Below are positions 13,797-23,678 of a stretch of DNA of 64,000 nucleotides, piece by piece. How positions within the stretch are numbered: position 1 is the stretch's first letter; every line of letters starts with the position of its first letter. The DNA comes from a virus: the IMG/VR virus record IMGVR_UViG_3300025120_000025, positions 1 through 64,000 of that record. One strand, 5' to 3'. The notes beneath the pieces were generated by a model that searched no databases, had not been told where the DNA came from, and saw nothing but the letters and a program-made list of their open reading frames with translations. The translations under genes were made by a program, and so were the position numbers.

Positions 13797-14023
13797 TGAG
13801 CAATAGACATATACAAATTGAAGGATCACAAACACTAGTAAGAGAAAGATATAGTGGTGGTATTGTTAATACTTCTACTAGTGAGTATCACACATATATG
13901 TCAGTTCAAAGAGGTAAACAATCTCAAAAGATTAAAATGCAGACTATGTGTGATGAACTAAATACTCTTAAAGATGAAATGAGTGAAATAAAAAGTATGT
14001 TAAGACAGATATTGGAGAAATAA
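13796..14023 (+). CDS. Small protein with C-terminal coiled coil, unknown role
   Basis: 75 residues. The first half has no recognisable motif; the last 30 residues (CDELNTLKDEMSEIKSMLRQILEK) form heptads typical of a short trimeric or dimeric coiled coil. It overlaps the giant structural gene upstream by TAATG and is one base from the next gene, so it is translated with them. It could be a fibre connector or assembly factor; that is inference only. Confidence 0.65.
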   Translation: MSNRHIQIEGSQTLVRERYSGGIVNTSTSEYHTYMSVQRGKQSQKIKMQTMCDELNTLKDEMSEIKSMLRQILEK

Positions 14024-14024
14024 T

Positions 14025-14306
14025 ATGGCAGTTACAGCAGTAAACGCAACAGATAGCATCGATGTTTGGAGAAGTAAAACTAATACAATTTCTACTACTC
14101 TAGGCGATCCTGCGGCACTAACAACGTCTGCAAATAACGTAGTCGCTGGTATTAACGAATTAGATAATGAGCAAGGAACTTTAAGTTCGCTAAACACTAC
14201 TGCAAAAGGTAATCTAGTAGTAGCAATCAATGAGATGAAAACAACTCTAGATAACGCCACTGGCGGTCAAGCGATACCAAGACCTGCTCTGATTGCGATG
14301 GCATAA
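14025..14306 (+). CDS. Short fibre-associated structural protein, copy 1 of a paralogue pair
   Basis: 93 residues. It shares with the next gene the arrangement W-R-x-K-TN, LGDPAAL, then two helices each ending in NxVxAINE (NVVAGINELDNEQGTLSSLNTT, LVVAINEM). The same NLVxAINE pattern occurs in tail-fibre-type proteins of marine myophages. The stop overlaps the next start (TAATG), so the two paralogues are probably made in fixed ratio. The function is not recognised; a virion role is inferred from place. Confidence 0.65.
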   Translation: MAVTAVNATDSIDVWRSKTNTISTTLGDPAALTTSANNVVAGINELDNEQGTLSSLNTTAKGNLVVAINEMKTTLDNATGGQAIPRPALIAMA

Positions 14307-14638
14307 TGGCGGTTATAGACTTTAGTAGATTAATTAGTTTCAAGCAGTGGTTTGATAGAACAAATCAATTAGGGTCTAATACAGGCGATCCTGCAGTGAT
14401 TAACGCTGACTTAGGTAGTAATCTAGTCAATGCAATCAATGTAGTTCATACCGACTTGGGTAACAAGGCGGCATTAAACACTGAAGTAACAACAAACTTA
14501 GTTGAAGCAATGAATGATTTGAATGCTACAATTAGTAGATTTCGATTAAACGAAGGTGAACCACAAGCATATGATATGCATCCTCAAGCAGTATTTGGTA
14601 CTGATAGTGATTTTGATGCACATGGTATGGTTGAATAA
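14306..14638 (+). CDS. Short fibre-associated structural protein, copy 2 of a paralogue pair
   Basis: 110 residues, paralogous to the upstream 93-residue protein: FKQWFDRTNQLG, TGDPAVINADLGSNLVNAINVVH and TNLVEAMNDLN align with its TN...GDPA...NVVAGINE pattern. It has an extra C-terminal tail of about 30 residues with a PQAYDMHPQAVFG stretch. No enzymatic motif is seen. A virion or fibre-base role is inferred from position in the adhesin region. Confidence 0.65.
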   Translation: MAVIDFSRLISFKQWFDRTNQLGSNTGDPAVINADLGSNLVNAINVVHTDLGNKAALNTEVTTNLVEAMNDLNATISRFRLNEGEPQAYDMHPQAVFGTDSDFDAHGMVE

Positions 14639-14641
14639 ATA
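14634..14641 (+). promoter_or_regulatory. Possible variant late promoter (AATAAATA)
   Basis: AATAAATA differs from the late core TATAAATA at one base and overlaps the stop of the preceding gene. The ribosome site AGAGGA and the ATG at 14665 follow. Weaker than the exact copies elsewhere. Confidence 0.35.
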
Positions 14642-14664
14642 GAAATATAAAGTAGAGGAAAAAA

Positions 14665-15000
14665 ATGGCAAACGATTTTCAAAATGCTATATCAAACAAT
14701 ATAGGAACAGGTCGAACTGATTTATATACTACACCTTCTGCCGTTGGCAAAAGAAGTATGTTGATTGGTCTAGAACTTGCTAATATTAGTGGTAGTGCGA
14801 TTACAGTAGATGTCGATGTCTATGATGCTTCTGCAACCGCATATGTTACAATGGGCAACGACCTTGCGATACCTGCTAACTCAACATTATCATTCATATC
14901 TGGACAAAAAATTGTTCTATCGAATGGCGATAAAGTAGCAGTCACATCAAGTGCGAGTGCATCATTGAATGCGATTGCAAGTATCTTAGAGGACATCTAA
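14665..15000 (+). CDS. Small beta-rich virion protein, unknown role
   Basis: 111 residues with alternating hydrophobic strands (LIGLELANISGSAITVDVDVYD, DLAIPANSTLSFISGQKIVLSNGDKVAV), suggesting a single beta-sandwich. It resembles in layout the 108-residue protein at 16720-17046 (an N-terminal strand, a DVYD/LLINDG edge, PAN, a sequence ending in a beta strand). It is separated by 2 bases from the long fibre-like gene downstream. No known family is recognised. Confidence 0.65.
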   Translation: MANDFQNAISNNIGTGRTDLYTTPSAVGKRSMLIGLELANISGSAITVDVDVYDASATAYVTMGNDLAIPANSTLSFISGQKIVLSNGDKVAVTSSASASLNAIASILEDI

Positions 15001-15002
15001 AC

Positions 15003-16682
15003 ATGAAATATGTAGGCGCACAACCGAGAGTATCAGGCAATAGATTAAATGGTGGTACAATTACCAACTTTGCATCAACTGGTATTGACGATAATGCAAC
15101 AGGAACAAAGATTACAGTTGTTGATGCGTCAACAACCTTTACTGGTAACATACTACCTGAAGCAGATAGTACAAGAAGTCTAGGTGCAACTGGCACTAGA
15201 TTTCTAAATCTATTTGTCGATGATGTTACAGCAACAACTTCTTTAAGTGTTCCTACGATTAATGTTGGTACTGCTTTACTACCTGATGCAAATGATGGTG
15301 CAGATTTAGGATCAACATCAAAAGGTTTCTCAGACTTATATCTTGCAGACAGTGCAGTAATTAAATTTGGTAATGACCAAGACGTAACGCTTACACATAC
15401 TCCTGATGTTGGACTTACACTTAATACTAAATTAATTGTTTCTGGAGACTTTGAAGCAAACTCTGGTTCACAGACACAAAATCTTGTCGTAACTGGTGGT
15501 ACACCAATATTAACAATTAAAGATAATAACACAGCGACAACTGCCGCTGATGCAGAGATTGCATTTGTAGATAGTGCGAATACTACACAAGCACAAGTTG
15601 GTATTGAAAATAATAAACTAATGCTCATCACTGAAGATGATGATGCAGGTGCTTCTGGTATCACACTAGGACTCGGCACAAGAACTACACATTTACCATT
15701 TCAACAAATGGATGAAAGTGGTAGCATAGTAGTAAGAGTTAATGCACAGACAAACATTGCGTTCAATAACAGTGGTACAATCACAGGTGGGGGTTCATCA
15801 TTCTCTGCAGTAAACGCAAATGACGTAATTACAGTATCAGGTGCTGGACAAGCATCAAATAACAAAGAATTTAGAGTTACAGCAAAAGCAGGAGATGTGC
15901 TTACAGTTGTAGCAGATGGAGGCGCATTACCTGCTACAGAGAGTGCTGGAGCAACAGTTACAGTCACGCAGAACCGTGTTAGAAACTTAAAGATAGCAAA
16001 CACCGTCAACGCAACTTCATATACTGCACCTCAATCAGATAATACAGATAGAGTATCAACTACCAAGTATGTAAGAACTGCAATCGCAAATATGCTAGAC
16101 AGTTCACCAGCGGCACTTGATACATTAAACGAACTTGCCGCCGCTATCAACGATGATGCAAACTTTGCAACGACAATCAATACAAGCATAGCAACAAAAG
16201 TAAACAGAGATTTTGATAACTTAACTGCGACAGGAACAGAAGCACTAAATGATGCCATCGGTGGGTTTGCAGGTGGTACAATGACATTCCCTGGAACAGG
16301 AAATACCATTGCTCTTGACCATGACGATGCAAATAATCACTTTGATATTACAGTTGCTTTGAATGATCCCGTAATTACAGTGACAACAACTGGTGCCGTA
16401 ACTGGTACTGCAAACGCAACGATGACAGATTTACAAAACACTACTATTAGTGTAGCAACAACATTAGCATCTGGAGCAGTTGCGGCGGCGTCACTAGACC
16501 AAACAGGTGCCGCTACTAATATGATTAAAGGATTAACACAAGCAACGAGTATTCAAAATGCAGATGAGTTTATTATTTCTGACGCATCAGATAGTGGTGC
16601 GTTGAAGAGAGTAGCAAGGTCTTTGGTTGCCCCTCCAGGGTTATCAGAAGATTTAGGTTTCTTTGCGATAGCGATGTCGTAA
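15003..16682 (+). CDS. Tail-fibre-like protein with repeated LGS/LGATG modules
   Basis: 559 residues. Near the N-terminus are two copies of a fibre repeat: LPEADSTRSLGATGTRFLNLFVD and LLPDANDGADLGSTSKGFSDLYL, then SAVIKFGNDQDVTLTH. Such repeats are common in tail-fibre and peptidase-linked fibre proteins of marine myophages. The rest is Thr/Ala/Asn-rich beta structure, with a helical patch (SPAALDTLNELAAAIN) as found in fibre stalks. The start at 15003 is 2 bases after the preceding stop. Probably part of the host-recognition fibre (inference). Confidence 0.75.
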   Translation: MKYVGAQPRVSGNRLNGGTITNFASTGIDDNATGTKITVVDASTTFTGNILPEADSTRSLGATGTRFLNLFVDDVTATTSLSVPTINVGTALLPDANDGADLGSTSKGFSDLYLADSAVIKFGNDQDVTLTHTPDVGLTLNTKLIVSGDFEANSGSQTQNLVVTGGTPILTIKDNNTATTAADAEIAFVDSANTTQAQVGIENNKLMLITEDDDAGASGITLGLGTRTTHLPFQQMDESGSIVVRVNAQTNIAFNNSGTITGGGSSFSAVNANDVITVSGAGQASNNKEFRVTAKAGDVLTVVADGGALPATESAGATVTVTQNRVRNLKIANTVNATSYTAPQSDNTDRVSTTKYVRTAIANMLDSSPAALDTLNELAAAINDDANFATTINTSIATKVNRDFDNLTATGTEALNDAIGGFAGGTMTFPGTGNTIALDHDDANNHFDITVALNDPVITVTTTGAVTGTANATMTDLQNTTISVATTLASGAVAAASLDQTGAATNMIKGLTQATSIQNADEFIISDASDSGALKRVARSLVAPPGLSEDLGFFAIAMS

Positions 16683-16686
16683 GTAT

Positions 16687-16694
16687 TATAAATA
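16687..16694 (+). promoter_or_regulatory. Late promoter (TATAAATA)
   Basis: Exact TATAAATA just after the fibre gene stop, 26 bases before the ATG at 16720. A ribosome site AAGGA lies between. Confidence 0.7.
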
Positions 16695-16719
16695 TGAGTA
16701 TAGATAAGGATTAACAAAT

Positions 16720-17046
16720 ATGGCAACAGGTATTTTTAAAAATGCAAAGGTAAGTGGAGCGGCAACATCAGTTGCGACATTATACGCAGTACCGTCAGGT
16801 AAGTATAGTACACTTCACTCAATTTTCATCACAAACAGATACAATCTTGAAGATTTGTATGTGAACCTATTAATTAACGATGGATCAACAGATTACTATG
16901 TAGCATATCTGTTACCAGTGCCTGCTAACTTGGGCGCAATAATCGAAAGACCTATTAATTTACAATCAACTGAAACCTTGAAAGTACAAGCATCAAGAGC
17001 AAGTTCTATTGACATTGTTGCCAATTTAATAGAATTCACAGTATAA
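16720..17046 (+). CDS. Small beta-rich virion protein, unknown role
   Basis: 108 residues. The core pattern is VATLYAVPSGKYSTLHSIF, LLINDGSTDYYVAYLLPVPAN and ETLKVQASRASSIDIVANLIEF, i.e. a compact beta-sandwich. Similar small proteins sit among fibre genes in marine T4-like phages. It is a possible distant relative of the 111-residue protein at 14665. A late promoter lies directly upstream, so it is expressed with the virion genes. Confidence 0.65.
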   Translation: MATGIFKNAKVSGAATSVATLYAVPSGKYSTLHSIFITNRYNLEDLYVNLLINDGSTDYYVAYLLPVPANLGAIIERPINLQSTETLKVQASRASSIDIVANLIEFTV

Positions 17047-17061
17047 CGAGAGAGATAACAG

Positions 17062-19449
17062 ATGCCATATATTGGAAGAACTAAATCAAACAACATTCGA
17101 ACTCAGAGGTTCATTGCCGATGGTGTTCGTAAGATATATCAGACAGAGTTTATACCTGTTAGTGATAATCAGTTATCAATATATATTGATGGCGTCTATC
17201 TTAACGACCAAGACTTTGTTTTCAAACACCCAAATAAAGTACTACTATCTGATGCACCTGCAAACGGTGCAGAAGTTGTTATTCAAGCACTTAAAGCATC
17301 TGAATATCAATCAGTTCGTTCTAAAACTTATGTAGCGAGTGGTTCACAAAGAATATTCTCATGTGGATTTACTCCACCTGATGAGTATTCAATTATTGTT
17401 ACAAAGAATGGCGACATTCTTCAAGATAAAGATTATGTAGTTCAAGGTAGTAAAGTTGTACTAACAAGTATGCCTTCTACTGGTCAAGAGATTGAAATTC
17501 GTGGTATCTATGATATCATCGATCCTTCTGGTAACGCACAAGCATCTAACTCACTCTCTATTAAAAGAACAAGAGGTATAACAGACGGATTTCAAAACAT
17601 TATGCCTATGCATCAAAAGAATGATGCAGAAAATAATCTACTAGTCTTTAGAGGTGGAGCGTCTGCTTCAGTCATGTCTAATCACAACGAATATGCTATC
17701 GTAAACGACTACAAGTATGTTCACGAAAGCAGATTATCAGAAAATATTCCTATCGAATTTAGAGGTCTAAAAGGTACAACATATTCTAATCTGTCACGAA
17801 GAGTGCAGATGGCAAAACATATCAGTGGTGTTCCTACTACTATCAACGCAACTCCTACTTCCTCTGGTACTTCTGGATATTCAAACGCAAATAATCTAGA
17901 AGCAAGAGGTGGTTCTGGTCAAGGATTCAGAGTTAACATTACAACTTCTGGTGGACAAGTAACAAACGTAGCAATCAATACTACCCTAGCAGGTGGCGAC
18001 TTTGCATATGGTTATCAAGCAAACGAAGTTCTAACAATTATTCAAGCAGGTTCTACGAACAATGCTACAGTGACAATCACTGCAGTAACAGACAGAAACG
18101 GTCAAAAGTACTTTGATGTAAATAATCATCATTGGGATCCAGCAAATAACACATATCAAAAAGAAACAACTTATACATACTCAGCGGATGAAGCAGATTT
18201 AATCGTTGCCGTAGATGGTATTATTCAACCATTTAATCAATACTCTGTAGTATCTGCAGACTTCAACGAAGGTTCAGGAGCATCTAATCAAGTTGTAAAC
18301 ATTGGTTCATATGTTGGTGTTGATGATACTGCATCTAAAATTGAAATTAGAGATTTAAAAGAATTAGTATCTAATGCAGACGCAGTTCTATTAGCAGACA
18401 CAGTAATATCAAGAGCAGTATGGGTCTCAAACGGGTCTGCCGCCGCATTTAATACTTCATCAGGTACAGAAACCACACATGGTTCATTTACAAACTTAGC
18501 GGCAAACGCCGCAAACGAAGAATGCTTCTTAGTTATTGTCGATGGTATTATTCAGGATAGAGATACATGGTCAATTTCTACAACTACTTTAACAGTTGGT
18601 GGTTCACCAGGTTCATCTGACCAATCAGTCAGAGTTGAATTGATTTACTTTGAAACACTAATACCTTCTGGTTCACATAATACACAAGACTGTTTGCAAG
18701 TTACAATGACTGGTAACGCAACAACTGGTCTTGGTGACCATCAGTTTATTAGACTACTTGACAGAGCAACTGGACTAAAAGAAATACATCCATCTTCAGA
18801 TGATTGTGTCATTGTAGACGTTAATGGCGTTTACCAGAACGATGATGCATACTTCATCGATAAGAACAAATTGTGCTTCTTTGATACAGTAGATAATCCA
18901 GCATTCGGCGCAATCGTCAATGTTAAAGTTCTAAAAGGCACAGAAGTTGTCGCCGCTAATAGAAGAAAAGTACAATTAAGAGGTACTGGTAGTGCGACAC
19001 AATTTACACTACCGTTTACATCAACTACAACTCCAAAAGATTTTGGTATTCTTGTATCAGTCAATGGTAAAATGCTTAGAGATGAAGAATTTGCTCTTGC
19101 ATCAACTACATTAACATTCAATGTCGCACCTGCTAACGATGCATTTATTGAAGTACAAGGCATCTTTGACATTACAACATACACTGGTGCTTCTTCAGCA
19201 ACCGACTTAGAAACTAGAAAACTAGAGTTTACTTGTAACGGGTCGCAACAAATATTTGACTTATCAGATTTAGTTTTTGAGAAACACGCATATGGTACCG
19301 TTCAAGATACATACAATGAACAAAAAATACTAATTTTTTATGAGGGAGAGTTGCAAGACCCAACTAAATATATAATAGTAGGAAATAAATTATACTTAAC
19401 TACACTACCTGTTAATGAAACAAAGGTAGAAGTCGTAAGGTTCATATAA
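17062..19449 (+). CDS. Tail-fibre protein with repeated strand-turn modules
   Basis: 795 residues built from repeats of one module: a strand, then SIYIDGVYLNDQDFVF, SIIVTKNGDILQDKDYVV, DLIVAVDGIIQPFNQYSV, FLVIVDGIIQDRDTWSI, DCVIVDVNGVYQNDDAYF, DFGILVSVNGKMLRDEEFAL and ILIFYEGELQDPTKYII. At least seven copies are visible. This [V/I]DGxxQ-x-Y module is typical of phage fibre N-terminal and stalk domains (T7 gp17-like). A GSGQGFRVNITTSGG insert lies near residues 290-345. Probably a fibre shaft or adaptor (inference). Confidence 0.75.
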   Translation: MPYIGRTKSNNIRTQRFIADGVRKIYQTEFIPVSDNQLSIYIDGVYLNDQDFVFKHPNKVLLSDAPANGAEVVIQALKASEYQSVRSKTYVASGSQRIFSCGFTPPDEYSIIVTKNGDILQDKDYVVQGSKVVLTSMPSTGQEIEIRGIYDIIDPSGNAQASNSLSIKRTRGITDGFQNIMPMHQKNDAENNLLVFRGGASASVMSNHNEYAIVNDYKYVHESRLSENIPIEFRGLKGTTYSNLSRRVQMAKHISGVPTTINATPTSSGTSGYSNANNLEARGGSGQGFRVNITTSGGQVTNVAINTTLAGGDFAYGYQANEVLTIIQAGSTNNATVTITAVTDRNGQKYFDVNNHHWDPANNTYQKETTYTYSADEADLIVAVDGIIQPFNQYSVVSADFNEGSGASNQVVNIGSYVGVDDTASKIEIRDLKELVSNADAVLLADTVISRAVWVSNGSAAAFNTSSGTETTHGSFTNLAANAANEECFLVIVDGIIQDRDTWSISTTTLTVGGSPGSSDQSVRVELIYFETLIPSGSHNTQDCLQVTMTGNATTGLGDHQFIRLLDRATGLKEIHPSSDDCVIVDVNGVYQNDDAYFIDKNKLCFFDTVDNPAFGAIVNVKVLKGTEVVAANRRKVQLRGTGSATQFTLPFTSTTTPKDFGILVSVNGKMLRDEEFALASTTLTFNVAPANDAFIEVQGIFDITTYTGASSATDLETRKLEFTCNGSQQIFDLSDLVFEKHAYGTVQDTYNEQKILIFYEGELQDPTKYIIVGNKLYLTTLPVNETKVEVVRFI

Positions 19450-19462
19450 AAAAGGTAGAAAA

Positions 19463-19990
19463 ATGGCACTGACAAAATTAACAAAACACATCGTTTATGG
19501 AGCGACTATCGTTCAATGTAGATTTAAGGACCTTTCTAATCTAGATACGACCGCTACTGCGGCAACAGCATGGGATAATATGACGATTACTCCTCAATAT
19601 TCAGATAGTATATTAGAAGTTAGATTTAGTGGAACTATGTCAAACCTTACTGATAATTCTGCTCCCAATTCAGGAACTTTCGATATCAATCAGATTAATC
19701 TAATTATGGATATTAATGGTCAAACTGAATATATTATAAACAATGCCGCCTCAACTGCATCTGGTGATATGGCATATTCTACATCTGCTGGTCGTAGAGA
19801 AGGTAAAGCGGTTAATATGTTCCATAGACATTTACCTGGAACTACAAACCAACAAACTATTACTATGCAAACATCTAGAGGTTCTTCTCATGGTGGTGGT
19901 AACTTACAGTGTAGGTCGGGATTCTTAATGGCAAAAGAAGTTGCAGGAGGTATTCTAACAGGTACACCTGGTAATGCTTTCGTTAACTAA
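19463..19990 (+). CDS. Fibre-tip-like paralogue 1 of 5 (HxH-containing)
   Basis: 175 residues, first of five tandem paralogues. All begin MxLxKxxKxxxxG, have a TPQYSDSILE-like strand at about residue 45, a long strand region, and a C-terminal FHRHLPGTTNQQTITMQT-like segment. This copy keeps one HxH (HRH) and SSHGGG. HxH pairs bind iron in the needle tip of T4 gp37; a similar receptor-binding tip role is inferred. It is the most divergent of the five. The ribosome site AAAAAGG precedes the ATG. Confidence 0.65.
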   Translation: MALTKLTKHIVYGATIVQCRFKDLSNLDTTATAATAWDNMTITPQYSDSILEVRFSGTMSNLTDNSAPNSGTFDINQINLIMDINGQTEYIINNAASTASGDMAYSTSAGRREGKAVNMFHRHLPGTTNQQTITMQTSRGSSHGGGNLQCRSGFLMAKEVAGGILTGTPGNAFVN

Positions 19991-20010
19991 ATAGTGATAA
20001 GGTATGTATA

Positions 20011-20535
20011 ATGGCACTGAAAAAAGTAAAGAAGTCTATAGTATTTGGTTCAGTTCTTGTGGCACACTATGGAAGAGATATATCAGACTTGACAACATCA
20101 AGTGCAAGTTTTGTACAGTGGGGAGAGGATATAGTTTTACAAATGCAATTTAGTGATAGTCACTTAGAACTAGTAACAACTGGTAGTGTAACAGTAGACA
20201 CTACCGCACCAGCAGGTGGAAACTATGGTAATCTTAAATATGCAGTAAATGGACAAGATGAATATTTTTTAAGAGGTATTGCAGGCGCCAACCCTTCAAG
20301 GGCAGGTGGTCACAATCATCAGAACCAACAATTTGGTGAAGACAATGGTAGACAAAATTGGAGAAGTTTTGGGTCTAGTACGGCACTTTATATGAACCAT
20401 ATACATAGACCAGGTAGTACAAACGAACAGACAGTGCAAACTTGGGGAAGTATGTCTGGTGGTATCCAGTTGACTTTTCAAGAAGGATTTACTACAGTGA
20501 CAGAAATTGCAGGAGAAGGATACAATCTAACATGA
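20011..20535 (+). CDS. Fibre-tip-like paralogue 2 of 5 (HxH-containing)
   Basis: 174 residues. It is closest to copy 3: both share SRAGGHNHQNQQFGEDNGRQNWR-type sequence (about residues 95-120) and MNHIH at about residue 130, giving two HxH motifs (HNH, HIH). The C-terminal half ends FQEGFTTVTEIAGEGYNLT, very like copy 3. A 61-base stretch at 20304-20364 is nearly identical to copy 3 in DNA, so the duplication is recent or maintained by recombination. A receptor-binding or fibre-tip role is inferred. Confidence 0.65.
   Translation: MALKKVKKSIVFGSVLVAHYGRDISDLTTSSASFVQWGEDIVLQMQFSDSHLELVTTGSVTVDTTAPAGGNYGNLKYAVNGQDEYFLRGIAGANPSRAGGHNHQNQQFGEDNGRQNWRSFGSSTALYMNHIHRPGSTNEQTVQTWGSMSGGIQLTFQEGFTTVTEIAGEGYNLT
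20304..20364 (+). repeat. 61-base block shared with paralogue 3
   Basis: The block runs from AGGTGGTCACAATCATC to the start of NWR and differs from 20851-20911 by a single base by eye. It encodes GGHNHQNQQFGE(D/N)NGRQNW. The genes around it are far more divergent. Confidence 0.8.
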
Positions 20536-20554
20536 GGAATATGAGGAAAAACAA

Positions 20555-21085
20555 ATGGCACTAACTAAAGTAACAAAACACGTTGTGTTCGGTTCAGTTC
20601 TGATTGCACACTACGGAAGAGATTTTGGAGACGTATCTACGGTATCTGCAACATTTGCACAATGGGGTACAGATACTTCAGTGACACCACAATATACAGA
20701 TAGTCATCTTGAACTAGTATGTACTGGATCAGTTCGAAATGATTCCACTGGTAACACAACTGGCGAACACTATGGCGCCGCTCAGTTTGTTGTGAATGGT
20801 TCAGTAGAATATATTCAAAGAGGACTACTTGGAGGTAATCCAAGCAGGTCAGGTGGTCACAATCATCAGAACCAACAATTTGGTGAAAACAATGGTAGAC
20901 AAAATTGGAGACATTTTGGTAGTGGTAGTGCTATATACATGAACCATATTCATGCACCTGCCTCAACGAATGCTCAAGTAGTAAAAACAGAAGTAGCGTG
21001 TGAGAATGCTGGTCCTAATTTTATATTCGAAGAAGGATATCTAACTATTAGTGAAATCGCCGGCAATCACTATAACTTGACATAA
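20555..21085 (+). CDS. Fibre-tip-like paralogue 3 of 5 (HxH-containing)
   Basis: 176 residues. It has GGHNHQNQQFGENNGRQNWR at about residues 99-118, MNHIHAPASTNAQ, and the ending SEIAGNHYNLT. HxH motifs HNH and HIH are both present. The first 25 residues (VTKHVVFGSVLIAHYGRDFG) closely match copy 2, while the region at about 30-95 is much more divergent, i.e. a conserved frame with a variable middle. AGGAAAAAC precedes the ATG. Confidence 0.65.
   Translation: MALTKVTKHVVFGSVLIAHYGRDFGDVSTVSATFAQWGTDTSVTPQYTDSHLELVCTGSVRNDSTGNTTGEHYGAAQFVVNGSVEYIQRGLLGGNPSRSGGHNHQNQQFGENNGRQNWRHFGSGSAIYMNHIHAPASTNAQVVKTEVACENAGPNFIFEEGYLTISEIAGNHYNLT
20851..20911 (+). repeat. 61-base block shared with paralogue 2
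   Basis: Partner of the block at 20304-20364, with one visible base difference. It encodes the HNH-containing segment of paralogue 3. Confidence 0.8.
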
Positions 21086-21097
21086 AAGGATAATAAA

Positions 21098-21643
21098 ATG
21101 GCATTAACAAGAGTAACAAAACATATCATACATGGGTCACTATTAGTCCAGTTCAAGTATACAGAGAATACTGGTGATTTTGATATCAGTTCTTCACAAA
21201 GTACGTTCACTGAAATAAACAGTAAAAATATTGTGATGACGCCACAGTATGCGGATTCTATCTTAGAAGATAGTGCTTCTATGACTGTTAAGATGCAACA
21301 TAGTTCTGATAATGTAACAGATACAATAACAACTGCTTTGTTTGTAAATGGTAATAATGAATTTGAAGCGATTGATTTAATAGGGTTTCAACCATATGGT
21401 AATGGTCACTCTCATTCAGGTGGTCGTAACGATAGAACAGCACCAACAAGAAGACACGGTCATGTAAGAAATATGGCAGCGGCCGCTGGATTTACTCATG
21501 CATTTACTCCTGCATCAACAAATGCTCAGGATCAAGATATTCGATGTAAAAACTCTGCTACCAGAAATATTAGAATTCGTGACTTCTTCTTTATTAGTAA
21601 AGAAATTTCTATTGGTCTCGCAACTTCTGGTTCACAGAACTAG
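21098..21643 (+). CDS. Fibre-tip-like paralogue 4 of 5 (HxH-containing)
   Basis: 181 residues. It pairs with copy 5: both have PYGNGHSHSGGRNDRTAPTR followed by RHGHV (about residues 99-124) and a FTHAFTPASTNA segment. HxH motifs HSH and HGH are present. The N-terminus (TKHIIHGSLLVQFKYTENTGDF) is again conserved and the region at about 25-95 differs. A role as fibre tip or adhesin is inferred from place and from the HxH pattern known in T4 gp37. Confidence 0.65.
   Translation: MALTRVTKHIIHGSLLVQFKYTENTGDFDISSSQSTFTEINSKNIVMTPQYADSILEDSASMTVKMQHSSDNVTDTITTALFVNGNNEFEAIDLIGFQPYGNGHSHSGGRNDRTAPTRRHGHVRNMAAAAGFTHAFTPASTNAQDQDIRCKNSATRNIRIRDFFFISKEISIGLATSGSQN
21391..21467 (+). repeat. 77-base block shared with paralogue 5
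   Basis: The block from ACCATATGGTAAT to CATGTAA is nearly identical to 21973-22049 (four differences by eye). It encodes the PYGN(G/N)HSH(S/T)GGRNDR and RRHGHV segment. Confidence 0.8.
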
Positions 21644-21679
21644 ATTGACTTTTAGTTTTGTCTATCAAAGGAATTTATA

Positions 21680-22249
21680 ATGCCGTTACACAAAATAACG
21701 AAACAGTCAGTAAAAGGTTGTCTATTAGTACAGTTTAAATATGAAGAAAATGAAGGCGAATGGTCACACGCTTCTGGTTCAAATGTTTTTGCGACAGTTA
21801 ATAATAAAAACATTACTCTTACCCCACAATATCCAACTTCTATTATTGAATTTAGTTGTTCGTTCACCATTCGAGGATCGCAATCATCACAGAACTCATC
21901 TCACACATTTGAATCAAGATTATTAGCAAACGGACAAGAAGAATATCTCTCGATTGATGTTGGTGGTTATGAACCATATGGTAATAATCACTCTCATACA
22001 GGTGGTCGTAACGATAGAACTGCACCAACAAGAAGACACGGTCATGTAACTAATAGTGCATACAGTGCAGGATTTACTCATGCATTTATTCCTAGAGCAA
22101 CAAATGCAATTATATTAGAGGTACAAGCAAGAAGTACTACCGACATGGATTTTATTGTTGCTGATTTGTTTATGATTGCAAAAGAAATTGGAATACCTGA
22201 AGATAGGGTGGCAGGCGGTTCTGGAAGTATTACACATGATGGTGTATAA
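21680..22249 (+). CDS. Fibre-tip-like paralogue 5 of 5 (HxH-containing)
   Basis: 189 residues, the longest copy. It shares PYGNNHSHTGGRNDRTAPTR and RHGHV with copy 4 and has FTHAFIPRATNA. The C-terminus is extended (GIPEDRVAGGSGSITHDGV). HxH motifs HSH and HGH are present. The start at 21680 follows AAAGGAA. Its stop overlaps a late-promoter core, so it probably ends one late transcription unit. Confidence 0.65.
   Translation: MPLHKITKQSVKGCLLVQFKYEENEGEWSHASGSNVFATVNNKNITLTPQYPTSIIEFSCSFTIRGSQSSQNSSHTFESRLLANGQEEYLSIDVGGYEPYGNNHSHTGGRNDRTAPTRRHGHVTNSAYSAGFTHAFIPRATNAIILEVQARSTTDMDFIVADLFMIAKEIGIPEDRVAGGSGSITHDGV
21973..22049 (+). repeat. 77-base block shared with paralogue 4
   Basis: Partner of 21391-21467. 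It encodes the HSH and HGH motifs of paralogue 5. Confidence 0.8.
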
Positions 22250-22262
22250 ATAGATATAAATA
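22245..22262 (+). promoter_or_regulatory. Two tandem late-promoter cores (TATAAATA)
   Basis: Two exact TATAAATA copies at 22245-22252 and 22255-22262, the first overlapping the stop of fibre paralogue 5. They lie about 40-55 bases before the ATG at 22301, which has TAGGAG as its ribosome site. Confidence 0.7.
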
Positions 22263-22300
22263 ATGATGTTATCAAATTATGAAATTAGGAGTTTAAAACT

Positions 22301-23176
22301 ATGGTAGACGCAAATACATTAAAGAAAACTGTTGGTCCAAAATCAGTAGAGGAACTAAGAAGAAAAGGTCCTCCTACTAGAGAAGAAATGGAAGCAGTTA
22401 TGGCGAAAGGCGCAATGGGTATTGCCGCCACAGATGAAGAATTAAATATTCTAGTAGAATATCATGCAAAATATAAACGTGCAGATAATTTAGGGAATAT
22501 GTTAGCAATTCTATACCCGAATTGTGATTGGTCATTAAACACAGTAGTAGGAGCAGATTGGAATGTAGCAGATAGTGGATTGCATCCAGGTGCTTTAGAA
22601 GCAGTAGAGTGGGATGAAGATAACCCATTACCTAAACCAACCTTTGCAGAACTAAAAAAGTTAAGACCTTATGTACAAGATATTCTAGACCAACAAGCAT
22701 ATCTAGATATGCGTAGAGCAAACTATCCTGGCGAAAATGAGATGATTAGAGCATTGTGGGAATATATACTTGAAGGTAATGATGTTGGTGTTAATGCATT
22801 ACAAGCAAGAAGAATTGCAACAAAGAAAAGATTTCCTAAACCAGAAAATAAACACTGGATGGTACAGTCAGAAGAATATCTAAAGATTTTTCCTAATTCA
22901 CCTGAAGATATTCTAAGAGATGTTGATGAAGCAACAATGCAAAAGATTGCTTTTAATCCTCACTTAGAAGCAGAAGATGCACTACCATTAAGTACAAAAT
23001 TATCACTTGAAGAAAGAATGGAAAAAGTTCTTGACGCAAGAGGATTCAATCCAGAGGAAGTTATCAATAGAACTATCACTCTGGAAGACGTTGATAAAGA
23101 AGAAGCACGATTGGAATCAAAGGGCGTTGATGTCAACGCACAAGAGACTGCTTCAGATGAAGAAACCAAAGAGTAA
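22301..23176 (+). CDS. Unknown protein in the tail region, possible fibre assembly or structural factor
   Basis: 291 residues, charged and helical, not beta-rich like its neighbours. Residues at about 110-175 (FAELKKLRPYVQDILDQQAYLDMRRANYPGENEMIRALWEYI, in segments) recall the YPxxxxxLxAL motif of phage tail and fibre-assembly proteins. The C-terminus is acidic (TASDEETKE). It lies between the fibre paralogues and the neck genes, where T4 has wac. It may be a chaperone or a minor structural protein; no firm family is recognised. Confidence 0.55.
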   Translation: MVDANTLKKTVGPKSVEELRRKGPPTREEMEAVMAKGAMGIAATDEELNILVEYHAKYKRADNLGNMLAILYPNCDWSLNTVVGADWNVADSGLHPGALEAVEWDEDNPLPKPTFAELKKLRPYVQDILDQQAYLDMRRANYPGENEMIRALWEYILEGNDVGVNALQARRIATKKRFPKPENKHWMVQSEEYLKIFPNSPEDILRDVDEATMQKIAFNPHLEAEDALPLSTKLSLEERMEKVLDARGFNPEEVINRTITLEDVDKEEARLESKGVDVNAQETASDEETKE

Positions 23177-23187
23177 GGAGAAATATC

Positions 23188-23583
23188 ATGCCAATCAAAA
23201 ACGGTAAACTTATTCTACAAAGAGAAGTATCTGACTTTTCCGAAAGGTTCACAGTTGATCCAGCAAATTTGTTATCAGTAGGAACGGTTGTCTCTATGGC
23301 ATCATCTGGTAACTTTGAGATAGCAGTATCTTCTGGAAATACTGATGGTCGTGTTATCGGAGTTATTTACTCTCTTGATAGAACAGTTAATCCATATGTT
23401 GCCCTAAAGGGTAGATGTATTGTTAATGTACGAGGTGCAGTCGCAAAAGGTGACATTTTAATTCTTTCAGCATATCAAGGTATGTTAGAAACAAATAACG
23501 GCGCCGACTTTAGTGCTATTAAAGCAAGGTCATTAACAGTGAATTCACTTCAACATGGACAAGTTGAGTGCGTTCTAGCATAA
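23188..23583 (+). CDS. Small beta-barrel structural protein, unknown role
   Basis: 131 residues. The pattern LSVGTVVSMASSGNFEIAVSS, GRVIGVIYSLD, VALKGRCIVNVRGAVAKGDILILSAYQG resembles the beta-barrel of phage decoration or fibre-cap proteins (strand, VIGV, then V-x-GxVxxGD-x-L). AAGGAG precedes the ATG at 23188, 11 bases after the previous stop. It is followed by a strong hairpin, so it probably ends its transcription unit. Confidence 0.6.
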   Translation: MPIKNGKLILQREVSDFSERFTVDPANLLSVGTVVSMASSGNFEIAVSSGNTDGRVIGVIYSLDRTVNPYVALKGRCIVNVRGAVAKGDILILSAYQGMLETNNGADFSAIKARSLTVNSLQHGQVECVLA

Positions 23584-23623
23584 TTAGATAATAATAAAAA
23601 GACTATAGTTTAAAACTCTATTT

Positions 23624-23678
23624 TCTCCAAGGTATAAATACTAGTAAGAATAGACTAGATATACCTTGGAGATTTTTT
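23624..23678 (+). promoter_or_regulatory. Inverted repeat that embeds a late promoter, a T-run and the gene 13 ribosome site
   Basis: TCTCCAAGGTATA (23624-23636) is perfectly complementary to TATACCTTGGAGA (23660-23672). The loop contains a further 5-bp stem (CTAGT/ACTAG), and six Ts follow (23673-23678), then the gene 13 ATG at 23679. The ribosome site TTGGAG lies in the 3' arm. The late core TATAAATA (23633-23640) overlaps the 5' arm. Read-through RNA should form the hairpin, ending transcription or hiding the ribosome site; RNA started at the late promoter would lack the 5' arm. Confidence 0.75.
23633..23640 (+). promoter_or_regulatory. Late promoter (TATAAATA) before gene 13
   Basis: Exact TATAAATA followed by CTAGTA, identical over 16 bases (23631-23646) to the gp25 promoter. 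The expected transcript start is near 23645-23647, inside the hairpin loop. Confidence 0.75.

Follow-up and report, generated by a model that had tools for sequence, protein, structure and literature searches.

The slot between VrlC and the neck genes is known as the host recognition cluster of pelagimyophages (PMC7029224). Two kinds of phage fiber provide further points of comparison. HxH iron sites are a described feature of T4 gp37, and other marine phages have been proposed to have them (PMC11705849). In cyanophage A-1(L), the neck fiber is built of gp82-gp81-gp80 trimers (PMC10966104). Here, we compare with these systems five tandem genes of the window, which is the whole 64,000-nucleotide stretch of DNA that was analyzed and is part of a 102,947-base IMG/VR virus record. 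We estimate a probability of about 0.6 that the five genes encode small adhesin heads of the virion, TNF-like, trimeric, and host-binding, with loops that are converted between sister copies.

The virus carries PAAR, gp25, gp6, gp8, VrlC-like, neck, terminase, sheath, tube, and portal genes, and is therefore a T4-like myovirus. By gp6, its nearest cultured phages are Methylophilales phage Melnitz and the Pelagibacter phages Mosig and HTVC008M (43-46% identity). The array has VrlC on one side and the neck genes on the other, and tail fibers are present. The region is thus a host recognition cluster of the T4-like marine myovirus type, and the original prediction that the genes belong to an adhesin region holds. 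Position and tail-fiber content are the same as in the cluster of pelagimyophages and cyanomyophages (PMC7029224). However, the cluster is compact and syntenic across the window lineage and spans about 9.9 kb (13797-23678), whereas the published one is much longer, with a mean of 44.6 kb in pelagimyophages. Two small proteins at 14665-15000 and 16720-17046, which flank a 559-aa tail fiber (15003-16682), belong to one family and both match phrog_1276, as does a Melnitz protein (L077 22374-22706). For the 559-aa fiber itself, alignment with several relatives covers only a part (418 aa at 48% in L057, 438 aa at 39% in L058), which suggests module exchange.

Each of the five ORFs (19463-22249) is preceded by an SD-like AAGG or GAGG element. 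The proteins share the start MALTKxTKHxVxGS and an ending with KE[IV], and their middles diverge. Copies 2-5 are 27-38% identical to copy 1 in the five-way alignment, in which 16 columns are invariant. The proposed row of adjacent paralogs with like ends and unlike middles is thereby confirmed as a set of homologous ORFs. In the 102,947-base record, a profile of the family matches exactly these five copies. Searches with copies 1, 3, and 5 by tblastn against 50,697 phage records returned none at E < 0.01, and the window copies had no significant family in PHROG or Pfam (no PHROG match below 0.05). No relative was found in GTDB genomes, which therefore provide no host clue.

Table. Positions in the window of the five-gene array, its His-loop tracts, and its conserved neighbors
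Feature	Coordinates	Strand	Remarks
795-aa structural protein	17062..19449	+	conserved neighbor upstream of array
Copy 1, class A	19463..19990	+	175 aa; HRH at 121-123; loop insert absent
Copy 2, class B	20011..20535	+	174 aa; HNH101, HIH130
His-loop tract, copy 2	20303..20364	+	98% identity to copy 3
Copy 3, class B	20555..21085	+	176 aa; HNH102, HIH131; AlphaFold2 mean pLDDT 83
His-loop tract, copy 3	20850..20911	+	98% identity to copy 2
Copy 4, class C	21098..21643	+	181 aa; HSH104, HGH120
His-loop tract, copy 4	21390..21467	+	95% identity to copy 5
Copy 5, class C	21680..22249	+	189 aa; HSH104, HGH120; AlphaFold2 mean pLDDT 79, loop residues 103-116 <50
His-loop tract, copy 5	21972..22049	+	95% identity to copy 4
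291-aa protein	22301..23176	+	conserved neighbor downstream of array

The same ordered array is present in the 18 related contigs checked, flanked by orthologs of the 795-aa and 291-aa genes. The copies form three groups in the tree, namely A (copy 1), B (copies 2 and 3), and C (copies 4 and 5). The array goes back to three ancient classes, arranged A-B-C, and repeated duplication of B and C produced arrays of three (G010, G011), four (G009), or five genes (the remaining contigs). G012 stands apart, with three genes, the first of which is truncated by the contig end. The B or C duplicates of L016, L018, and L021 are closest to one another in the tree (the B pair of L018 is weakly supported), and duplication or homogenization thus occurred more than once. 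A sixth family match in G014 is copy 1 split over two frames (L013, L035; 4673-5181), owing to a frameshift or an assembly error. In copy 5 of L010 (3098-3649) and L011 (8190-8741), the first-start ORF has an extra MRCTV ahead of PLTKITKK, which is possibly a matter of start-site choice. In the comparison of the window with its nearest relative, dN/dS is 0.31-0.66 for the five copies and 0.02-0.24 for most neighbor genes, with two short genes at about 0.48. The values of the copies are in keeping with host-facing proteins whose constraint is relaxed or shifting. All five are below 1, and they do not establish positive selection.

AlphaFold2 monomers of copies 3 and 5 have a confident all-beta jelly-roll core, with poor order in residues 1-10 and in the His-rich insert. 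Both these models and Foldseek agree with the jelly roll of a TNF-like adhesin head. The PDB matches listed by Foldseek include PLTL and BC2L-C (both TNF-like lectins), Pgp3, the CBD of the short tail fiber gp33 of cyanophage A-1(L) (8ke9, E 3e-4), and other phage tail proteins, and their TM-scores are about 0.5 at best among the matches listed. The jelly-roll topology is shared with the N-terminal domain of BC2L-C, PLTL, and the C-terminal domain of Pgp3 (E 4e-5 to 6e-4), but identity is 7-15%. These three are non-phage proteins, and what the window family has in common with them is the predicted fold. The gp33 CBD, although similar in fold, is one domain within a long fiber. In BFVD, a set of predicted viral structures, the family matches stand-alone phage proteins (140-190 aa in general, 157-191 residues for the best, with E as low as 4e-12) and also longer tail fibers.

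The family profile also matches two adjacent hypothetical proteins of Melnitz (E = 4.5e-5 for Melnitz_194 and 0.01 for the other). Both in turn match a PHROG tail fiber in its C-terminal part, Melnitz_194 at 1.4e-12 (phrog_6942 'tail fiber protein'). Melnitz_194 and Melnitz_195, together with the phrog_6942 C-terminus, resemble the window family in length, in tandem genes, in lying in the same structural genome region, and in the motifs ITPxYxxS and P-[AS]-[ST]-T-[SN]. They lack the N-terminal peptide and the His-rich loop, however, and the sequence tie to known fiber tips, one weak profile match (Melnitz_194), is tentative. Taken together, the fold matches and the Melnitz and PHROG tail-fiber matches point to a fold of the fiber-tip type, here in stand-alone chains. 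This agrees with the earlier description of the copies as tip-like modules. In the models, the same fold is predicted both for solo proteins and within longer marine-phage tail fibers.

Short conversion-like tracts homogenize the His-rich loop of neighboring paralogs. In the window, a 62-nt tract is 98% identical between copies 2 and 3, compared with 63% over the whole gene, and a 78-nt tract is 95% identical between copies 4 and 5, compared with 60%. Where residues agree, identical codons are more frequent in the loop than outside it (20/24 vs 35/77 for copies 2 and 3, p = 9e-4; 23/24 vs 34/63 for copies 4 and 5, p = 1e-4). The same codon pattern is seen in class B of L005 (19/19 vs 32/72) and class C of L023 (21/23 vs 37/69). 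The codon tests are not significant in L010 and L018 (both classes) and in class C of L002 and L005. Sister copies have genome-specific loop signatures in common, such as GHTGGRNNRT in L005, RVAGTRR in L001, and FSHHGGRNDRL in L006. Within the close clade, loop nucleotides are nearer to the own-genome partner than to foreign partners (p = 0.003 in B, 2e-4 in C). The own-genome effect in the cores is not significant in B and is about a fifth as large as that of the loop in C. The tracts, the shared codons, the genome-specific signatures, and the own-genome affinity of the loops together argue for local gene conversion. Copy-5 orthologs of L001, L002, L004, L006, and L007 bear a different loop, and window copy 5 bears that of copy 4. 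From this distribution, we infer the direction from copy 4 to copy 5, and copy 4 is the probable source of the HSH and HGH of window copy 5. The loops were also considered as targets of a diversity-generating retroelement. This was rejected, as RVT_1 is absent from the record, which is possibly incomplete, and the loop differences are not A-specific.

Instead of gene conversion, the likeness of the loops could reflect protein-level constraint combined with the few codon choices for His, Asn, and Gln. Two-fold codons are common among the loop residues, and orthologs of different genomes also show a loop excess, albeit so small as to be almost none (0.58-0.63 vs 0.55-0.59). However, within-genome codon identity of the loop is far above this control, at 0.83-1.0 for class B (window, L005) and 0.91-0.96 for class C (L023, window), and both sister copies carry the loop signatures of their own genome. 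We regard constraint as a very unlikely explanation. The homogenized loops suggest a common partner for sister copies, either a receptor or each other, and not separate receptors. This bears on the idea that each copy is made for a different host ligand, so that the array broadens host range. Such a role is compatible with copy cores that differ at 40-60% of positions and with the ancient origin of the classes, but within one virus copies 2 and 3, and likewise 4 and 5, have nearly identical exposed loops. The several receptor specificities of the original prediction are weakened by this homogenization between copies of one genome, and we consider them unlikely. Another arrangement, which appears quite unlikely, is an obligate heterotrimeric head with one chain each of A, B, and C, as in complement C1q. 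Duplicate B and C chains would then be alternative subunits, made interchangeable by loop conversion.

The His residues raise a different question, namely whether the copies are metal-containing needle tips in the style of T4 gp37 and gp12, in which iron or zinc on the trimer axis would be bound by HxH pairs from three chains and the tip thereby stiffened. Besides the HxH motifs, a proposed adhesin role is common to both, and the proposal for other marine phages (PMC11705849) favors the comparison. The five copies contain nine HxH, whereas 1.4 are expected from residue shuffling (p = 2e-4), and 21 other structural or neighboring proteins (9440 aa) contain two; the HxH motifs first noticed are thus a true enrichment. 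One His that ends a core strand (H121 in copy 1, H131 in copy 3, H134 in copy 5) is invariant in classes A and C and nearly so in B. Its HxH partner is retained in nearly all class A copies, as HRH, and in most class B copies, as HIH. In classes A and B, a metal site at this core-strand His is possible. The HxH pairs of the insert are variable and missing from most copy-5 orthologs, and those of window copy 5 look newly acquired. No HxH is found in the copy-5 orthologs of L001, L002, L004, and L006, and many orthologs lack the motif, those of class C above all. Metal binding through HxH pairs is possible, although the pairs are not conserved, and their variability and frequent absence make a metal site conserved in all copies unlikely. 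Moreover, the models predict a TNF-like jelly roll, globular in shape, and not a needle. Neither gp37 nor gp12 was found among the 50 PDB fold matches listed or in PDB sequence-profile searches, which returned nothing credible. The analogy with the gp37 needle is therefore not supported, and metal-stiffened tips seem improbable. Alternatively, five trimers could dock head to tail via the N-terminal peptide into a filament of the neck or tail, with a role more structural than receptor-binding. The A-1(L) neck fiber (PMC10966104) is a precedent for small tandem-encoded proteins, the array adjoins the neck genes, and the shared N-terminal peptide is highly conserved and disordered in the monomer model. 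However, gp80, gp81, and gp82 have no sequence similarity to the window family. The fold matches are tip and lectin domains and the array evolves fast, both of which also speak against a filament, and we find it doubtful.

The reading as adhesin heads, which we prefer, would work as follows. Each chain is predicted to fold as a TNF-like jelly roll and, judging from this fold, would most likely trimerize. The heads may be mounted via the shared N-terminal peptide on the tail-fiber apparatus or on one another, and from this presumed location on the virion they would attach to the host surface. Classes B and C of the ancient A-B-C set were duplicated again and again, and, at the level of sequence, their His-rich loop is copied between adjacent paralogs, leaving one loop type per class per virus. 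The loops of sister copies probably touch one common receptor or one another, which would explain the conversion.

Phage adhesins are usually pictured as diversifying. In this tandem family, the loop is near-identical in sister copies via patch-sized gene conversion, while the scaffolds drift. The fold and the location are of known kinds. Full-text searches, which covered a minority of subscription papers, turned up no account of gene conversion or concerted evolution between tail-fiber paralogs of phages. Judged by this literature, the combination of an ordered A-B-C array and patch-wise loop conversion is new. If confirmed, it would mean that one adapted loop could spread across a multi-head adhesin, and a build of phage tips from mixed paralogs would become testable.
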